Positions 28,420 to 50,365 of a stretch of DNA of 54,632 nt are shown here, piece by piece. Every line of letters begins with the position of its first letter. The first letter of the stretch is position 1. The position numbers and the translations under genes were made by a program. Source of the stretch: a virus. A model generated the notes under the pieces. The model saw only the letters and a program-made list of their open reading frames with translations, searched no databases and had not been told where the DNA came from. Location of the stretch: positions 1 through 54,632 of IMG/VR virus record IMGVR_UViG_3300004282_000003. One strand, 5' to 3'.

Positions 28420-28638
28420 CTAAGAAAGACTTAAAGTTCTCTCACCCTTTTCTTCAATTTTATCAATTTCTTCTATCCAATATCTAGGTTTGGTTTGTCT
28501 TCCTGTTAATATTTTTAAATTTTTCATCTCCAATCTATCTATTTCTTTTACGTCAGTAAAATAATAATGTGTAACAACTAAATCTCCACAATCTCTTTTT
28601 ATTTCTTTCAATCTTCCAATTAATCTACTAATTTTCAT
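28420..28638 (-). CDS. Small hypothetical protein
   Basis: 72 aa. The N-terminus KISRLIGRLKEIKRDCGDLVVTHYY resembles small phage proteins with an HTH-like opening, followed by a charged end. GGAG 8 nt upstream. Overlaps the preceding 40-aa gene by 4 bp (ATGA). Confidence 0.5.
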   Translation of the reverse strand: MKISRLIGRLKEIKRDCGDLVVTHYYFTDVKEIDRLEMKNLKILTGRQTKPRYWIEEIDKIEEKGERTLSLS

Positions 28639-28757
28639 TCTTTATTCTCCAATTTTTTTACTCTAATTTCTAGTTTAACTACCCAAAAAATCATACAGAC
28701 CATCCAAACAAATTCTAAAATTGGTTTTATTTTGGGATTCCAAATCCAATCAATCAT
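28635..28757 (-). CDS. 40-aa membrane peptide
   Basis: ATG 28757 overlaps the previous stop; TGA overlaps the next ATG. One hydrophobic helix (ILEFVWMVCMIFWVVKL) followed by a charged tail. Tight coupling on both sides supports translation. Function unknown. Confidence 0.5.
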   Translation of the reverse strand: MIDWIWNPKIKPILEFVWMVCMIFWVVKLEIRVKKLENKE

Positions 28758-29013
28758 AGTCATGTTTCTTTCCTTTACATTTGGGTTCAATTCTACCCTT
28801 TACTCTAAATTGATTATCTAAAATTCTATAATCACCATCACTCCATCTTTCAATTTTACCAACTCTTTCATATCTATTGTTATAAATTACTCCTTCTTTT
28901 ATAAATCCTTTTTTATTATATTTGGTATCGTAAATGTCATCTTCTGATATACTTATATCACACTTTATAAATAAAGCAAGCAAAAAGATTATAAATAGCA
29001 ATATTTTTTTCAT
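28750..29013 (-). CDS. Secreted or periplasmic small protein
   Basis: 87 aa with a signal peptide (MKKILLFIIFLLALFIKC). The mature part (DIYDTKYNKKGFIKEGVIYNN) is a short Y-D/G-R repeat type seen in exported bacterial proteins. Destination outside the cytoplasm. A Cys after the hydrophobic core is not in a good lipobox. Confidence 0.6.
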   Translation of the reverse strand: MKKILLFIIFLLALFIKCDISISEDDIYDTKYNKKGFIKEGVIYNNRYERVGKIERWSDGDYRILDNQFRVKGRIEPKCKGKKHDYD

Positions 29014-29237
29014 ATTGAGAAATCCCTATAAATAGTAGTTGTTTTTCCTTCACATACTTCCAAACATCTTTTTTTATAGCCATTACCAATATTAATTCCA
29101 TTGTAAAGCAAATAAGCCTGTGACCAATTTTTACTGGTATATTTTGTTTTGTAGCTTCCTTTTCCTTTTCCAATTTGAATTTTATAACATAAAAATTTAG
29201 GAAGAGATTTTATAAACATTGGTATTTTATTTTTCAT
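29010..29237 (-). CDS. Small basic hypothetical protein
   Basis: 75 aa, Lys/Gly rich (IGKGKGSYKTKYTSKNWSQ) with two Cys in KKRCLEVCEGK. Overlaps neighbours by ATGA-type junctions. Function unknown. Confidence 0.5.
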   Translation of the reverse strand: MKNKIPMFIKSLPKFLCYKIQIGKGKGSYKTKYTSKNWSQAYLLYNGINIGNGYKKRCLEVCEGKTTTIYRDFSI

Positions 29238-29594: not shown

Positions 29595-30821
29595 TTAATT
29601 CTCCTTGCACATTGATAAGGTTTTCATGTTCATCCAATTCTTTCCAACACTCCATTCAGTTGCTAATTCAACTTTCTTTGGAATTGGTAAATTATGATTA
29701 ATCATTTCATAATCAACTAATTCCATTAATTCCAATGCTTCTTTTTTGTAAAACATAAAGAATATAGAATCATGTATTTGGGTACACATATAACTTTTCA
29801 AATTGCTTTGTAGTAGTTTCTCTTCAATTCTAATAATAGCATCTAGGAGAATATGGAAACTACAAGATTGAATTGGAAAGTTAAATATTTCATTTTGTGT
29901 TAATGGATAATTCCTTCTAAATCCTAATGGAGTTTCTATATAACCATTTCCATAATAGAATTGTAATTGATCTTCTTGCCATTCTTTTAAACCTTTATAT
30001 CTATTGAAAAATTCTTTTTGTGCTTCTGCAAAATGCTTTTCTGAATATTCAATATAAAATTGATTCCAAGGATCTTTATTGTAAGGAGATCCTTTCCTAT
30101 ATTTTTCTCTTACAAAGTTTTTATAAACATCAAACTTTCTAAATTCTCTTGCTATAGATATATTGCTAGCACCATAAATATTTGCAAATGTCCAATTGTT
30201 TTTTACAATATATCTTTCATCATCATGTAACTTTTTTACTTCTGGTAATTCATAATTCCATCCAAATATAACATTAGTCCAATGACTATGCATATCTAAA
30301 TCTTCATTTAAATCTTTTAATAATTGTTTATCACCACTTAAATTACCTGCTGTTTTAACTTCAGCACCTTCATAATCAACTTCTGCTAATAACCAATCTG
30401 GTCCTAAAGGAATAATTGGTTTTCTTAAAATCTTCCAACTCATTCCTTTTTTTATATCTCCATGTTTAGGTTGATTTTGAATATTTGGACTTGAACCAGA
30501 ACTTCTTACAGTTTCAGTAGTATTTAACCATAAATCAGGGTGTATAAAACTTGTTCTAAAACCTTTATATCTTATTCCTTCTTGAACCCATCTTCTCAAT
30601 TCAGCAAGATAGTTATTTTTAGCCTTTTCTAGTTTCCTATATTCCAATAACAAACTACAAAATTTAATCTTCTCTTTTTCAGCATAATGTAGAATGACAG
30701 ATTCATCTACACTTGCTTTCTTTTCACCGGATTTACCCCCTGCTGTTTCTTTTATTGGTTGAAGATTTAAATGATTGAATAGAAAATCTGAAACTTGCTG
30801 TGGACTACTTAGATTAAACAT
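29595..30821 (-). CDS. Family A DNA polymerase, catalytic half (split)
   Basis: 408 aa. Starts at FNLSSPQQVSDFLF, normally an internal thumb-domain position in Pol I. Then RSSGSSPNIQNQPK, motif A LAEVDYEGAEVK (Asp about 149), motif B RYIVKNNWTFANIYG with Lys and Tyr of the O-helix, and motif C TQIHDSIFF, where the usual HDE is HDS. It therefore has the palm and fingers but no exonuclease, which is in the upstream ORF overlapping by 8 bp. The pair should work together as a replicative polymerase. The Glu to Ser change is next to the catalytic Asp, not the Asp itself. Confidence 0.82.
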   Translation of the reverse strand: MFNLSSPQQVSDFLFNHLNLQPIKETAGGKSGEKKASVDESVILHYAEKEKIKFCSLLLEYRKLEKAKNNYLAELRRWVQEGIRYKGFRTSFIHPDLWLNTTETVRSSGSSPNIQNQPKHGDIKKGMSWKILRKPIIPLGPDWLLAEVDYEGAEVKTAGNLSGDKQLLKDLNEDLDMHSHWTNVIFGWNYELPEVKKLHDDERYIVKNNWTFANIYGASNISIAREFRKFDVYKNFVREKYRKGSPYNKDPWNQFYIEYSEKHFAEAQKEFFNRYKGLKEWQEDQLQFYYGNGYIETPLGFRRNYPLTQNEIFNFPIQSCSFHILLDAIIRIEEKLLQSNLKSYMCTQIHDSIFFMFYKKEALELMELVDYEMINHNLPIPKKVELATEWSVGKNWMNMKTLSMCKEN

Positions 30822-32439
30822 CTTTTTTCCTCATAGTCAATTTTCTTTTAATTGTTGTAATTATATTTATTGGTTCCTCTTCATCATCTGTATCATTTTT
30901 CTTTGGCTTTGTAAATACTTTATTCTTATTTTTTTCTAAATAACTTATAATATCTGGAAGATTTTCAATTTGGTCATATGTTTTTCTTAATTCACTATCA
31001 AGTAATTCTTCTAAAGTATCCAATTCAAATTCATCAACTGGCAATCCATTCCATGACATATTTGCAAATACTTCATGGCCTTTTAAGATAAAGTCATAAC
31101 ACCATCTAAACTTTTCAGTTTTATCTAACCAATTATCTAACAATTCATAATTGGCAAATGATGTTATTGAATCTAATCCAGAATATTGAATAAGATCATC
31201 TGGTGGACATAAATGAATTGTATTCTTTTTATCATTCTTATTTTTTATTTCTAAATACTTTTTTACTTTCTTATTATATTTTGGTAATCCAAATCTAACA
31301 AGGTTTTGAAAATCAAGAGAAGTGCAACCACCCCGTTCATCAATAACATGAGTAGCCAGCATTGTATCAAATGTATTTCTAATTATATTTCCTCTTGGAT
31401 TTAAATGATCTTTAAACGCAAAATCTCTTGGATTACTATCTTTAAATACCCAACGTCTAGTTACCAATTCTTCATATTTTACATTTTGAATTATAGTTAA
31501 AAGATCTTCTCTATTCAATAAATCAAAAACTTTATTTTTAAGTTTTGGAATTGGATCTTCATATCTTGGAATATAAATAACCCAAGCTTTTTTTCCAATT
31601 GCAAATGACATACACCAAACTTCAAAATTATCATCATAAGGTTTTAAATTGGTAGTTTCATAATCAAAAGAAAACTTTCCTGATTCTTCTATTTGCTTTT
31701 GCATTTTATCAAAATCATCTATATCTCTAATTTGTTTTATAGTTATTCCTGAAAGAACCTTTCTTTTCTTTAGAAAATTATTTACATATTTTCTTTTATG
31801 CAATAATCTTTTATATGAATCAAATATTCTTTTTAAATCTTTTTCTAATACAATTGCATTGCCAGGATTTCTTAAAATATTTGCCGGATGATTAGTACAA
31901 AATACTAAACAATTAAATTCATAGTTAGGAATAATTCTGTTTCTCAGTTTTGTTATGCCTTGTTTTTCTCCAAATAGATTCAACACTGAATTAGATGCTA
32001 CTTCACCCAAACAGATAATTACATTTGGTTTTAATTGTAATAGTTTTTCTTTTAATTTTGTTCGGCAACATCTAACATAGGTTTCTGACATTTTATTATT
32101 TGGAGGTCTACAAGCAACAGCATTAATAATACTACAATGTTTAATATAATTTCTTTTTATTGTTGATCTTAATAATTGTCCTGATCTACCAACAAAATTT
32201 ATTCCTCTTTGTTGCTCTTCTTCCCCTGGTGCTTCACCAACAAAAACTAAACCATTTGGTTGTGGATTTCCTATTTCAGTTATTCCTATTGGTTTATTTG
32301 TAGAAGATTTTAAACCACATTTATTACAATCATAAATTACTTTCTTTTTAGTTTCCCCCTCTGGAATATCAAAATAAAAATTTCCTTTTGATTCTATTTC
32401 TTTTGGTATTCCTATAATCCTTTTTAATGTAGTTTTCAT
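30814..32439 (-). CDS. Uracil-DNA glycosylase + 3'-5' exonuclease half of DNA polymerase
   Basis: 541 aa. Residues about 30-210: family 4/5 UDG with GEAPGEEE, FVGRSGQLL, NAVACRPPNN and a CTNHPANIL block, and Cys38, Cys41, Cys110 and Cys124/125 placed for a 4Fe-4S cluster. Residues about 240-450: DnaQ-like exonuclease (FSFDYETTNLKP, VKYEELV, IQYSGLDSI). The end is a thumb-like helix then an acidic linker and KRKLTMRKKDV. SPO1-like phages carry UDG-exo-pol in one chain; here the chain is cut before the polymerase core. It would proofread and bind or remove uracil. Confidence 0.82.
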   Translation of the reverse strand: MKTTLKRIIGIPKEIESKGNFYFDIPEGETKKKVIYDCNKCGLKSSTNKPIGITEIGNPQPNGLVFVGEAPGEEEQQRGINFVGRSGQLLRSTIKRNYIKHCSIINAVACRPPNNKMSETYVRCCRTKLKEKLLQLKPNVIICLGEVASNSVLNLFGEKQGITKLRNRIIPNYEFNCLVFCTNHPANILRNPGNAIVLEKDLKRIFDSYKRLLHKRKYVNNFLKKRKVLSGITIKQIRDIDDFDKMQKQIEESGKFSFDYETTNLKPYDDNFEVWCMSFAIGKKAWVIYIPRYEDPIPKLKNKVFDLLNREDLLTIIQNVKYEELVTRRWVFKDSNPRDFAFKDHLNPRGNIIRNTFDTMLATHVIDERGGCTSLDFQNLVRFGLPKYNKKVKKYLEIKNKNDKKNTIHLCPPDDLIQYSGLDSITSFANYELLDNWLDKTEKFRWCYDFILKGHEVFANMSWNGLPVDEFELDTLEELLDSELRKTYDQIENLPDIISYLEKNKNKVFTKPKKNDTDDEEEPINIITTIKRKLTMRKKDV

Positions 32440-32504: not shown

Positions 32505-34184
32505 TTACTCCATATCTTCTTTGATAATTTCAATCAACTGCTTTGTACGTTTACGGGCATAGATCTTATCCTTACCCTTTTCAATGAAAACAGGGACCAT
32601 CTTCTTAATAATAAAGTCATCATCCCTGCCCTTCTCAAGCATACGTTCTACCATTTGATAAGGAGTTTCTTCTTCCTCATCTTCTTCATCAACTTCAACT
32701 ATCTTCTTTGCGGGGCGACCACGTTTCTTTGTTTCTGAATCCTTTTTACTTTTTACCGTGTCTTCATCAGGTGTCAATTCCTCAATAAGTCTTTCACCCA
32801 ACTTCTTAACACTCTTCTTTTCCATTACACCAACTTTAATTTCAAGTTCCTTTGCAATTCCCAAAAGACCATCAAGATCTTTTGTTTTAACCATACTTAA
32901 AACCAAAGACTGATTAATTTCTACTGGTTCCTCTACTTCAGGAAATCCATCTTCTTCTACTTTTTCAACCATAAGAGCAATGGTAGCCTTTTTAGTAACG
33001 CCAGGTTTAATTTTCAAACCAAGCTTCTTAGCTGCTGATTTCAATTTACCAATAGGCATTGCTTCCCACTCTTCTGTTAATTCATCAATATCAACTTCAG
33101 ATTCCTTTTTGGCTTTCTTTTTCTTTTTAAAATCCAAAGGCTTTTCATCTTCATCTTCTTCTACAACCTTCTTTTTCTTTTTAAAATCCAAAGCCTTTTT
33201 AGGTGTGGGTGTTTCCTCTTCATCATCTTCTAGTTCTGCATCATGCCCCAATGCTTCAAGCATATTCTTCTTCAGTGTTCCAAACTTAATCTTTCCCCTA
33301 ATTGAAACACTTTCAAAGAGATCTTCATTTTCTTTATAGATTGTTTTCAAATCATCAACATCTTCTGCATCTGCAATTGCACTTGCAACTTCAAAAGTTT
33401 CCTCTGTTTCTTTTTCATCTCCACCAGTTTTTTCTTCAATAAATTCAATCATTGCTTCTTGCAATTCATCGAAGTTTTTCATCTTAGAAAACTTCTCAGG
33501 AAAAACTTCATATTGATCCATTACTTTCCTGAGTTCTTTAATTGTTTCACACTCTTCAACTTGATCTTGAATTTCTTCCCAATTAGTTTCCGGTTTCTTA
33601 GACTTCTTTTCTTTCTTTACTGGCTTTTCATCTTCATCTTCATCTACAACCTTCTTCTTAGATTTCTTTTCTTTCTTTGTTGGCTTTTCATCTTCCTCAT
33701 CTTCTTCAAACAAAGCCTCATCCAATCCTTCATACCATTCTACAAATTCATCACTGTAATTCGCTTCAGGATCAATTTCAGCAATGATAGATTTACACAT
33801 TTCCTCTTCATCCAAACCCTTGAGTTCAGAAACATCCAGACCAACTTCTTTTGCAAACTTCTTCAATTCTTTCATTTCCATAAAAATAGTCTCCAGTGAT
33901 AGTTTTGTAATGTTTGTTAGTTTAATTGCAATTTCAAGTTCATTAGCTGTAGCTCTTCTACGATTTTCTTTAATACATTTTACATAATACAAGTAAATAA
34001 ATGCCCTACTTAAAAGTAATTTTTCCCCCCTTCCATATTTTATTAACGCTCTTTGAATTACTGGATAATCAGAGACACCCAATATCTTTAGGCGACCACT
34101 GTTTATCATTCTAAAAATTTCTATTCTTCTTTTTAAGTCGTACAGGTAAGCTTTCCAAACAGGTAAATAAACAAATCTAACCAT
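32505..34184 (-). CDS. Large acidic/basic repeat protein with AT-hook
   Basis: 559 aa. Residues 1-95 look like a folded basic domain. From residue 101 a low-complexity region alternates acidic clusters with Lys runs (KPTKKEKKSKKKVVDEDEDE; LDFKKKKKVVEEDEDE repeated), and several short helical SAP-like modules (AKEVGLDVSELKG; AKKLGLKIKPGV; AKELEIKVGV). KKRGRPAKK near the end is an AT-hook. A second in-frame ATG after GGAGACTATTTTT at about 33881 has a good site, so a shorter form may also be made. Likely a nucleoid-binding protein. Terminator downstream and promoter upstream suggest high expression. Confidence 0.65.
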   Translation of the reverse strand: MVRFVYLPVWKAYLYDLKRRIEIFRMINSGRLKILGVSDYPVIQRALIKYGRGEKLLLSRAFIYLYYVKCIKENRRRATANELEIAIKLTNITKLSLETIFMEMKELKKFAKEVGLDVSELKGLDEEEMCKSIIAEIDPEANYSDEFVEWYEGLDEALFEEDEEDEKPTKKEKKSKKKVVDEDEDEKPVKKEKKSKKPETNWEEIQDQVEECETIKELRKVMDQYEVFPEKFSKMKNFDELQEAMIEFIEEKTGGDEKETEETFEVASAIADAEDVDDLKTIYKENEDLFESVSIRGKIKFGTLKKNMLEALGHDAELEDDEEETPTPKKALDFKKKKKVVEEDEDEKPLDFKKKKKAKKESEVDIDELTEEWEAMPIGKLKSAAKKLGLKIKPGVTKKATIALMVEKVEEDGFPEVEEPVEINQSLVLSMVKTKDLDGLLGIAKELEIKVGVMEKKSVKKLGERLIEELTPDEDTVKSKKDSETKKRGRPAKKIVEVDEEDEEEETPYQMVERMLEKGRDDDFIIKKMVPVFIEKGKDKIYARKRTKQLIEIIKEDME

Positions 34185-43574: not shown

Positions 43575-44345
43575 ATGAACTTCAAAAAATCAACAAAAGA
43601 AGCAATGGTTCCAATGGAAAAAAATCTCAGTACATTGGAGAATTTACTTGTCAATCGTTTCGACTTGCAACTTGCAAAAACTAATACCCTTGCCGAACAA
43701 TATATTATTTTGAGTCAGCGAATAGCAGTCATCGAAACGACTGCAAAGGAAACAAATGACTTGATTAAAACATTGTTTGGTAAGGTGTCATCACTGGAAA
43801 AGAGTTTAGGTGATACAAGAAAAAACGAAGTTGCAAAGGAACTTGCTGGCAATGTTATTCCGCACACTGCTACCAGCAAAAAGATTAAAGGTTTAACAAT
43901 AAATGAAGATAGATTTTTGGAACTCAGAGAAGAAATGACCCAAGAGGATTATCCAGACTTTGAAAGGTTTTATTCTATAGTTAAAACATGGTGCAAAAAG
44001 GATGCGTGGAAAACATTCGGTAAGAAAAGTATGCAAGCGCAAGCAAAGGAACTTTGGGATAATGAAGTTTCGAAGCTTGACCCAATGAGTCAGGAACTAG
44101 ACGAAACACCATATAAGTTTCCTGAAAAATCAGTTGAAACGAAAGCACAAAGCCAAACTGAAATATGGTCGAGTACAATGGGTATCGACAAAACACTGCT
44201 TGACAAAGCCGTTAGTGGAGTCAGGCAATGCACAGAGGACGAACTAGAAATCAAGTCCGTATTGGAGTTTCTGAAAGTGGACTTGCATAGTCCTTCAATT
44301 AAAGCTTTCAGCAAGTGGATTTTGAGTTTGTGCAAGACCGGCTAA
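43575..44345 (+). CDS. Hypothetical coiled-coil protein of plus-strand island
   Basis: 256 aa from ATG 43575 (AAGGA 9 nt upstream; earlier in-frame ATGs lack a site). N-terminal coiled coil (LSTLENLLVNRFDLQLAKT; VIETTAKETNDLIKTLFGKV), a mid domain with DYPDFERFYSIVKTWCKKDAW and helical C-terminus. Base and codon use is visibly richer in G/C (CGA, GCG, GAC) than neighbours, pointing to recent transfer. No family recognised. Its stop lies in a 19-bp tandem duplication. Confidence 0.6.
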   Translation: MNFKKSTKEAMVPMEKNLSTLENLLVNRFDLQLAKTNTLAEQYIILSQRIAVIETTAKETNDLIKTLFGKVSSLEKSLGDTRKNEVAKELAGNVIPHTATSKKIKGLTINEDRFLELREEMTQEDYPDFERFYSIVKTWCKKDAWKTFGKKSMQAQAKELWDNEVSKLDPMSQELDETPYKFPEKSVETKAQSQTEIWSSTMGIDKTLLDKAVSGVRQCTEDELEIKSVLEFLKVDLHSPSIKAFSKWILSLCKTG

Positions 44346-44372
44346 TAATCACTAGACCGGCTAATAATCACT
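44335..44372 (+). repeat. 19-bp tandem duplication across a stop codon
   Basis: AGACCGGCTAATAATCACT occurs twice head to tail; the first copy contains the TAA stop of the preceding gene. Looks like a recent slippage or insertion scar. Confidence 0.8.
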
Positions 44373-44389
44373 CCAAACCACCATTAAAA

Positions 44390-44423
44390 TTACGGGTAGC
44401 AGTCATTAGATTGCTACCCGTAA
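44390..44423 (+). terminator. 12-bp stem-loop
   Basis: TTACGGGTAGCA pairs with TGCTACCCGTAA around a 10-nt loop, then CCTTTTCT. Between the two plus-strand genes, so it either terminates or attenuates transcription into the second. Confidence 0.65.
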
Positions 44424-44448
44424 CCTTTTCTGAAAGGATATTAAGCTA

Positions 44449-44877
44449 ATGAGAATAGACTTCAAAAAACGCCCAAAATCGACTAGCAAGCAGTCACCTC
44501 CTGGCAAGCAGTCACCTCCTGGCAAGCAGTCACCTAATCTTCCCATGTTAGCAAGTGACTATTCGCCATATTCAGGCATGATTTTGACAAAGGTGGGATT
44601 AATTAAAGAAATCAAGTCGAGAATGTACAAGTTTTTGTTTAATTGGATATGCAGTCAAGTCGCAATGAGTACGAACCACAAAGATCTTTTTTCCGTGATA
44701 GAAGCAAAAACAATTGCAAGTGAATTAAACAAAGTTTTTAATAAAGTTATGACACTTGCAAGCGATAAAGAAAATAGAACAACAAAAAAAGAACTTCAAT
44801 TGTTAGTTATAAATTCATGTAAGGATATTGCCTCTTGCATGATAAATGAATTAAGTTTGTTAGATATTGACTTATAA
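44449..44877 (+). CDS. Hypothetical protein with proline repeat
   Basis: 142 aa. KQSPPG repeats from an 18-nt DNA repeat (44488-44541), then a helical part (GLIKEIKSRMYKFLFNWICSQ; KTIASELNKVFNKVMTLASD). AAAGGA 10 nt upstream. Second gene of the island, possibly working with the coiled-coil protein. Function unknown. Confidence 0.55.
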   Translation: MRIDFKKRPKSTSKQSPPGKQSPPGKQSPNLPMLASDYSPYSGMILTKVGLIKEIKSRMYKFLFNWICSQVAMSTNHKDLFSVIEAKTIASELNKVFNKVMTLASDKENRTTKKELQLLVINSCKDIASCMINELSLLDIDL

Positions 44878-47962: not shown

Positions 47963-47982
47963 ATGGGGGATTTCTCCCCCAT
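47963..47982 (-). terminator. G5/C5 stem-loop
   Basis: ATGGGGG pairs with CCCCCAT around ATTTCT, between the 48023 gene and the lysozyme. The same hairpin type follows five other genes. No U-run; may control relative expression. Confidence 0.6.
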
Positions 47983-48022: not shown

Positions 48023-48217
48023 TTATGGATTAGCTGCTACCTTATCAGCTAATTTCTGACGTTCAGTAGCAAATTCAGTAGCAAATGTTTGAGCTTGTTC
48101 CAACGTAACAGCATCTTGTACACCAGCTACCAATTTATCAATTAATACTAATACAGAAGCAACTACACCTTTAGTTGCTTCTACTTCAGCCGAAATTACA
48201 TCAAAACCTAAACTCAT
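48023..48217 (-). CDS. 64-aa protein, likely highly expressed
   Basis: From ATG 48217 (GGAG with a 6-nt spacer; longer starts have no site). MSLGFDVISAEVEATKGVVAS, then an Ala/Val-rich helix (LVLIDKLVAGVQDAV) and helical end. Codon use is less A/T rich than neighbours. It is preceded by a 548-bp gene-free leader and followed by a hairpin, suggesting abundant expression. Function unknown. Confidence 0.6.
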   Translation of the reverse strand: MSLGFDVISAEVEATKGVVASVLVLIDKLVAGVQDAVTLEQAQTFATEFATERQKLADKVAANP

Positions 48218-48765
48218 TTTATACTCCATTAATATTAGGTGAATTAGTAAATTGTCCACTTTTTTGTGTAATTCATCATCACGGAATAACCAAGATAAAA
48301 TCAATAGAATAACCCCCTTTCCTTATTTATTATAGTTTCTTTCTCCTTTCTATATTTATTTAGTTCTTTGCGACTCATTACATTTCTGTACCTTTTCTGT
48401 TCCCTTCTATACCTTTTCACTTCCTATTCATACCATTCATTACCTTTTCATTTCCCTTTTGCTCTATACACTACCTTTACCCATCCCCACAGTTTAGCTT
48501 ACTACCGTTTCCCTTTGAAACGATTCAACTCGTAACCATTTCTTTTCTAGTCGAAACCCTTCTGCTCTCCACTTTAACTATTCGTTACTTTTCTTTTCTG
48601 ATCCTTACAATTACATATTCTTTCCCTTCTGCTCTCCACTTTAACTAAACGATACCTTTCTTCTCCAATCCTCACAATTACATATTCTTTCCCTTCCAGA
48701 CCTTTCGTTTCTCCGCTTTCTCGTTTCGTTACTATTCTATACCTTTTCTTTTTATAACTTCCCTT
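48218..48765 (-). ncRNA. Gene-free purine-rich region, candidate noncoding RNA or long leader
   Basis: No credible reading frame on either strand. The minus strand is mostly A/G with short repeated words such as AAAAGGTA-nn-GAA (at least six variants). It is the largest gene-free stretch in the window and less A/T rich than it. It ends at the ribosome site of the 48217 gene. Could be a structured or purine-rich leader RNA, or a DNA site. Type is uncertain. Confidence 0.45.
48557..48690. repeat. 67-bp tandem repeat, two full copies plus decayed copies
   Basis: 48557-48623 and 48624-48690 both begin CCCTTCTGCTCTCC and end ACAATTACATATTCTTT. The centres differ (TATTCGTTACT versus TAAACGATACC). 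A partial third copy starts at 48691 and a degenerate one precedes (about 48508-48556). Confidence 0.85.
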
Positions 48766-49389
48766 TTATTTTTTCCCTCCTTTTTTCTTTTTACTAATTT
48801 TACCATTAGAAATTGTTTCCCATGTAAAACTTCCATTACCACCACCACGCCAACAACCAATTCCTTGATCTCCACCATAATCAAGAATTGATTCTATTTT
48901 ATCCCAAGTTAATTCACTATGTTTATATAAACGTAAAATAAATTCAATTGAGGTTCCTTCATTAACATAATCAGAACAAGCTAAAGATATTCTTTGTCCT
49001 CTAGCTGTTTGTCCTATCATTGGACGTTCTATTTGTCCATCTGGTTTTTCTTTAATCCAAATAAATCTTGGATAGACAAATAAAAAATCTACAACTTTGG
49101 ATCTTAATGCTTTAACTTTTAACATATTTTTACATACATTTGCTGCGTGTTTTAAAAATCCCTTAATTTGATAATTAACAAAATAAATACCTTCTTCATC
49201 TGTATGAAAAATAGTTTTACTTTTGCGTTTTTCTGTAGTTTCTTCTGGAAGCATTTCTAACTCTTCTTCCAAGTTTTCTGATTCTTGTCCTATGAATTGT
49301 GTATATAATTCTTTATTCTCTGGTGACATTGCTAGACATGGAGTTGTAAAAGTTATTTTAAATTTTCTTTCCTCAAATTCCAATCCCAT
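48766..49389 (-). CDS. Phage protein with glycine-rich loop (RAMP-like?)
   Basis: 207 aa from ATG 49389 (GAGGG 8 nt upstream). FTTPCLAMSPENKELY, IYFVNYQIKGFLKHAAN, ERPMIGQTARGQRISLACSD and GGDQGIGCWRGGGNGSFTWE are motifs I associate with an uncharacterised phage family. The Gly-rich loop near the C-terminus recalls RAMP/Cas7-type RNA-binding folds, which is only a resemblance. Own promoter at 49409. Basic Lys tail. Confidence 0.6.
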   Translation of the reverse strand: MGLEFEERKFKITFTTPCLAMSPENKELYTQFIGQESENLEEELEMLPEETTEKRKSKTIFHTDEEGIYFVNYQIKGFLKHAANVCKNMLKVKALRSKVVDFLFVYPRFIWIKEKPDGQIERPMIGQTARGQRISLACSDYVNEGTSIEFILRLYKHSELTWDKIESILDYGGDQGIGCWRGGGNGSFTWETISNGKISKKKKGGKK

Positions 49390-49408: not shown

Positions 49409-49437
49409 ACTATAACTTTATTTTTACAGAAAGTCAA
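49409..49437 (-). promoter_or_regulatory. Sigma-70-like promoter
   Basis: Minus strand TTGACT, 17-nt spacer, TATAGT, about 13 nt downstream to the leader of ATG 49389. Overlaps the stop region of the 49434 gene. Confidence 0.75.
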
Positions 49438-50110: not shown

Positions 50111-50365
50111 TTATTTACTCCTTAAATTTGCTTTTTTTAAATTTGCTTTTTTTAAATTTGCTTTTTTTGATATACCAAGGGATTCCATAATTCGTTTTTC
50201 AAGTTCAGATTTCATTGGGACAATTCCATTTAATGTTCTACTCAAAATAGTTTCAGATGGCGATCCTCCAAGAGCTTTTCGTAACTTCCACAATGGAATT
50301 TTTTGTTCTTTAATTATTTTATATAAAGGATGTTCAATTATTTCAATATCTGATATTAATTTCAT
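50111..50365 (-). CDS. XRE-like helix-turn-helix regulator
   Basis: 84 aa. HPLYKIIKEQKIPLWKLRKAL then SETILSRTLNGIVPMKSELE matches the Cro/C1 HTH. The C-terminus is three tandem LKKAN units from a 15-nt DNA repeat (50124-50168). Likely a small repressor, maybe of the phage's own promoters; target not known. Confidence 0.65.
   Translation of the reverse strand: MKLISDIEIIEHPLYKIIKEQKIPLWKLRKALGGSPSETILSRTLNGIVPMKSELEKRIMESLGISKKANLKKANLKKANLRSK
50124..50168. repeat. 15-nt coding tandem repeat x3
   Basis: AAATTTGCTTTTTTT three times within the HTH gene end, coding KKANL units. Slippage-prone; copy number may vary among relatives. Confidence 0.85.

Follow-up and report, generated by a model that had tools for sequence, protein, structure and literature searches.

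The array and its surroundings

The window, by which we mean the whole stretch of viral DNA analysed (54,632 nucleotides, IMG/VR record IMGVR_UViG_3300004282_000003), contains a gap of 548 bp at 48218-48765, flanked by an open reading frame (ORF) whose end is at 48766 and by an ATG at 48217. No other gap of the window is as long (the next two measure 311 and 309 bp), with the reservation that positions 48218-48304 may belong to the downstream ORF as an in-frame extension of its N-terminus. Both the exceptional size of this gap and its one-strand A/G bias, recorded in the first-pass annotation, were reproduced here. The strongest purine bias on the minus strand was found in this same stretch, devoid of plausible genes, and pyrimidines constitute 75.7% of the plus strand over 48310-48765, where the maximum of the entire window falls (window mean 58.8%, sd 5.3%).

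Most of the gap is occupied by an array of pentanucleotides (Table 1), each composed of a fixed G, then A or T (58% and 39%, respectively; almost never G), and three variable bases. On the minus strand, G recurs with a period of 5.155 nt across the array, whose parse starts with GTATA GAATA GTAAC GAAAC and comprises 82 anchors (88% of them G), separated by 67 steps of 5 nt and 14 steps of 6 nt. The longer steps, of the type GAAAAG followed by GT, occur about once per 6 repeats, and the AAAAGGTA words are these very steps (GAAAAG followed by GTA). The best local repeat parse scored 48.1, whereas 200 shuffles reached no more than 10.4; when both strands were scanned the array was the sole place in the window with such a parse. 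The two 67-bp tandem copies reported previously are indeed present; they are a tandem duplication of 13 array repeats (11 of 5 nt and 2 of 6 nt), 67 bp being the length expected of 13 steps at the array period. As to the decayed copies described around them, a third, less similar copy does exist; however, given the period of G and the outcome of the repeat parse, the sequence is more aptly described as an array of strict period whose letters vary. Nor is it a frame-shifted gene, as had been considered, since the repeat period is 5 nt and no reading frame is conserved.

No CRISPR-like exact repeats were found, and the exact DNA of the array had no match in viral contigs. An Rfam search over the window and 15 related loci gave no match in any array and no hammerhead, and no folding signal indicative of a structured 3' tail was detected after the window array (z -0.12 for 48215-48330).

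Table 1. Features at the array locus of the window
Feature	Position	Strand	Remarks
Intrinsic-terminator-like hairpin	47963..47982	-	8 pairs, then T-run
64-aa ORF after the array	48023..48217	-	possible TTG start at 48304
vrRNA-like array	48310..48765	-	~75-80 pentanucleotides; strongest core 48366-48748
Two 67-bp copies	48557-48623 and 48624-48690	-	88% identical
Third copy of the 67-bp unit	48701-48767		63% identical
vipr-like gene	48766..49389	-	207 aa, RAMP/Cas7 fold; ATG at 49389
Promoter-like TTGACT-17-TATAGT	49409..49437	-	just upstream of vipr-like ATG; 10/12 matches

The gene adjoining the array encodes a protein that gave no useful match in Pfam, PHROGs or NCBIfam. Its AlphaFold model (pLDDT 90.3, pTM 0.83) was most similar in Foldseek to a type VII Cas7 among PDB structures (E 1.2e-7), and matched also Csm3/Cmr RAMPs; the E values to type VII and type III Cas7 proteins ranged from 1e-7 to 1e-5, and the best 50 PDB matches listed were all CRISPR RAMP proteins. 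The family profile likewise matched type VII Cas7 (E 3.3e-4) and Csm4 in the PDB, and two family members had Pfam RAMP matches. A glycine-rich loop is typical of RAMP proteins; that of the window protein (DYGGDQGIGCWRGGGNGSF) lies at the C-terminus and is nearly invariant in family alignments. The first distant relatives were found in human-gut phages, at 33-35% identity. In total, 145 relatives were collected in viral contigs (80 kept), together with 60 loci in bacterial assemblies, mostly of Clostridia; loci L219 and L220 belong to Porcincola intestinalis, a cultured host. Genes of repressors, integrases and SSB often lie near the vipr-like loci, and no recurrent partner or accessory gene (vap or cas-like) was found in these neighbourhoods.

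The terminator-like hairpin is a possible end of a predicted transcript carrying the gene, the array and the small ORF; five terminator-like sites were found in the region, with 0.5 expected. Promoter-like sites numbered 11 against 12.1 expected, so the match upstream of the vipr-like gene is not above chance. The 64-aa ORF has no relative or family that we could find, viral contigs included. Elsewhere in the window, a DNA polymerase is encoded on the minus strand in two overlapping ORFs (29595-30821 and 30814-32439) corresponding to successive parts of phrog_17, a split which is either natural or an assembly frameshift. Other repeats comprise perfect short tandem repeats with GC-rich units (19 bp x2 and 18 bp x2.8) in a small plus-strand gene block at 44315-44535, a 60-bp tandem repeat at 33595-33709 within a 559-aa ORF lacking a PHROG match, and three exact 15-bp repeats at 50122-50168, which give an 84-aa ORF a C-terminal series of KKANL repeats.

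Pairing and organization of genes and arrays in the family

Arrays were sought at related loci by a composition-corrected spectral scan, which detected none in 1.25 Mb of control sequence. As a cross-locus test, a plain local repeat score was abandoned, because G-rich controls inflate it. A same-strand array adjoins the gene in 132 of the 145 loci encoding the window protein or its relatives, that is, in 80 of 85 viral or phage loci (the window included) and in 52 of 60 genome loci. Of the 13 loci with no detected array, five are cut short in the flanks or in the gene, and in a further two an array is visible on inspection. One 254-kb contig carries a vipr-like gene with no detectable array, and its record holds two matches. 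The arrays immediately adjoin the RAMP-fold gene, on either its stop-codon or its start-codon side, and those lying downstream start at the stop codon (median -5 nt). The leader and the replication or packaging site proposed in the first-pass annotation are not supported, since the array travels with the RAMP-fold gene, on the same strand, before or after it, and not with the small ORF downstream.

In 126 arrays, 5-nt steps number 9342 and 6-nt steps 1835, with 61 steps of other lengths. Array length ranges from 22 to 706 repeats (median ~80). Anchor positions are occupied by G in 94% of cases, compared with 70% in shuffled sequence, and the G is followed by C, A or T. The family consensus of the 6-nt step is GCAAWG, followed by GC. 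Between successive 6-nt steps, runs of 4-6 steps of 5 nt are the most frequent (sd 2.0, against 5.5 for random placement), and the lengths of successive runs are uncorrelated (0.03); therefore, an array consists of independent modules of ~31 nt. A circular HMM fitted best with a period of 31 among periods to 41, its double, 62, being slightly better, and a period of 6 gave a fit no better than background. The second anchor base varies, being GC in most phages, GT in L198 and L218, and GA or GT in the window. This variation correlates only partially with GC content (r 0.51, loci L087-L226) and may reflect protein specificity. The largest array, with GT anchors and ~700 repeats, extends over 3.6 kb after the gene of L218, and it is preceded by a strong hairpin and followed by a terminator-like one.

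In close pairs of arrays the anchor Gs were 98.4% identical, in comparison to 82.1% for other Gs (p 8e-30), and the G closing each 6-nt step was unchanged in all 156 comparisons. Phages whose genes are 89% identical can nevertheless have arrays with no detectable similarity. Folding in arrays of related phages, suggested in the first-pass annotation as a check, was not apparent: fold energies of 17 arrays equalled those of shuffled sequence (mean z 0.01). Conservation of the anchors together with the lack of a folding signal indicates that what is selected is how the Gs are spaced along single-stranded sequence devoid of structure, which a protein reading along RNA would be expected to require.

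A probable guide-RNA system and its alternatives

The view that nothing among known feature types explains the gap was justified until April 2026, when a preprint which now explains it described VIPR (Viral Interference Programmable Repeat; bioRxiv 2026.04.26.720920, PMC13142463). In this system, phage RAMP proteins (Vipr) operate with guide RNAs made of YNNGG pentanucleotide repeats; the guides read DNA via variable dinucleotides, with one target base skipped, and silence competing phages (PMC13142463). VIPR is proposed to be both pre-CRISPR RNA-guided recognition and an inter-phage weapon. We located the VIPR locus of Escherichia phage SUSP1, composed of Vipr (28474-29061), vap1, and vrRNAs in both gaps. 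The SUSP1 vrRNAs can be parsed with the same 5-nt anchors as the window family, and the last step of the two clearest repeat tracts is 6 nt long (GTATGG followed by GT); other phages of the SUSP1 clade have discrete tracts of ~10-15 repeats. In hhalign, the window family matched SUSP1 Vipr alone with an E of 4e-4 and a 7-member profile of SUSP1-type Vipr with an E of 7.3e-5 over 173 columns, whereas the control with vap1 gave 0.43. Thus, the family shares several characters with VIPR: a small single RAMP-fold protein with a G-loop and an RRM-like core, homology to Vipr, adjacent tandem pentanucleotides with a fixed G and variable bases, and loci that are mainly of phages or proviruses.

It is, in our opinion, very probable that the window locus is a VIPR system, in which a RAMP protein and a guide-RNA array would, by analogy with SUSP1, silence rival phages. 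This interpretation is based on the protein's fold and its homology to SUSP1-type Vipr, on the pairing of gene and array on one strand, on the strict period and on the conserved anchors. From the published system we infer transcription, RNA binding, guide function and targets of the window array. The array would be transcribed from the gene's strand as a guide RNA, along which Vipr-like subunits would be arranged, one per repeat and each holding on to its fixed G; a DNA target would be specified by the variable bases located between these Gs, and binding of the target would then silence genes of competing phages or satellites. Noncoding RNA was therefore the right candidate among those named previously, though transcription itself is predicted by analogy. 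The recurring 6-nt step probably delimits protein blocks or staggered guides, given that a step of this length ends the SUSP1 repeat tract immediately ahead of the tail.

When 36 decoding rules were applied to 6.6 million target letters (contigs of 50 related viruses and the other loci), nothing rose clearly above reversed-sequence controls. The published rule (NN at offsets 2-3 after the anchor, skip 1) gave a slight excess, 20 versus 8 at a score of at least 17, which does not stand clear of the noise. The best match, of the L136 array to L212:2156 (27/30 letters), lies where a host lipoprotein-like gene begins and appears fortuitous. The paucity of clear targets would be understandable if the array RNA were not a guide, and the RAMP protein coated it as a decoy, sponge or structural filament, e.g. 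against host CRISPR or another RNA-based defence. Continuous arrays of up to 706 repeats, far longer than SUSP1 guides, and the fast drift of variable bases could be explained in the same way; however, rapidly changing variable bases are equally expected of guides, and the homology to SUSP1-type Vipr is accompanied by the same pentanucleotide layout, for which guide function was demonstrated in SUSP1 (PMC13142463). Hence, we regard such a role as improbable.

Still far less likely is a DNA-level element, such as an origin, a packaging site or a DNA-wrapping site, whose bases would be in phase with the helix. The period of 5.16 nt is near half a helical turn and remains coherent over ~90 nt, but the strand polarity shared with the gene in the 132 paired loci and the apparent terminator closing the L218 array argue against such an element, as does the expression of SUSP1 arrays as small RNAs (PMC13142463). 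Helical phasing was rejected because the 5-nt run lengths are independent, which fits separate modules rather than phase locking. Equally implausible is a long untranslated leader regulating the 64-aa ORF, directly upstream of which the array lies, as no relative of this ORF was found at other array loci, some arrays are upstream of the RAMP gene, and neither the 17 arrays nor 48215-48330 gave a folding signal.

If the VIPR interpretation is correct, the window locus and its relatives would represent a large branch, mostly in phages of gut and rumen Clostridia, that combines one protein with very long arrays. The ~31-nt module constitutes a second layer of order, absent from the main text of the preprint, and raises the question of how 6-nt steps split one RNA into guides. 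In addition, G recurring every 5.16 nt provides a simple signature for finding such loci independently of protein homology.

Relation to known systems

The window protein shares its fold and glycine-rich loop with Cas7 of types VII and III (Csm3, Cmr4), and like Cas7 it would be expected to bind RNA as multiple subunits. Nevertheless, class 1 CRISPR-Cas has a cas operon and a repeat-spacer array, and the window locus has neither; moreover, Cas7 on crRNA has a 6-nt period, in contrast to the 5 nt of the window family arrays. TIGR-Tas (PMC12045711) is likewise an RNA-guided system of phages in which a single protein is accompanied by a repetitive array; however, as described in the literature, it employs a Nop domain and other array units, whereas the window protein has a RAMP fold. 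Racr RNA anti-CRISPRs (PMC10651486) are similar in being phage noncoding RNAs near CRISPR-related parts, but they are solitary mimics of CRISPR repeats, while the window array is periodic and hypervariable and has its own protein.

The closest counterpart is the type II VIPR of SUSP1. Common to both loci are a phage-encoded RAMP protein of ~20 kDa, pentanucleotides with a fixed G anchor and variable bases on the sense strand of the gene, 6-nt steps, and long intergenic flanks coding RNA, putatively so at the window. The SUSP1 motif is GGY, whereas in the window family only one G is present and the next base is C, A or T, so the strict GGY form does not occur in it. SUSP1 has vap1, and its vrRNAs are discrete, each with 9-16 repeats and a structured tail at the 3' end, while the window family has continuous arrays and no recurrent vap gene; the 6-nt step closes a tract in the former and occurs inside the array, about every 6 repeats, in the latter. 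With a continuous array, no folded tail and no recurrent partner gene, the window locus is therefore classed as VIPR but not type II. We tentatively propose, at slightly less than even chances, a subtype in which a single tail-less RNA, continuous over tens to hundreds of pentanucleotides and punctuated by a 6-nt step roughly once in six repeats, would carry many overlapping guides or protein blocks and work with one protein and no accessory gene. The preprint (PMC13142463) distinguishes seven VIPR types and refers to staggered arrays, in which vrRNAs overlap, as well as to a related consensus in its supplement; loci of the window type could be this form.
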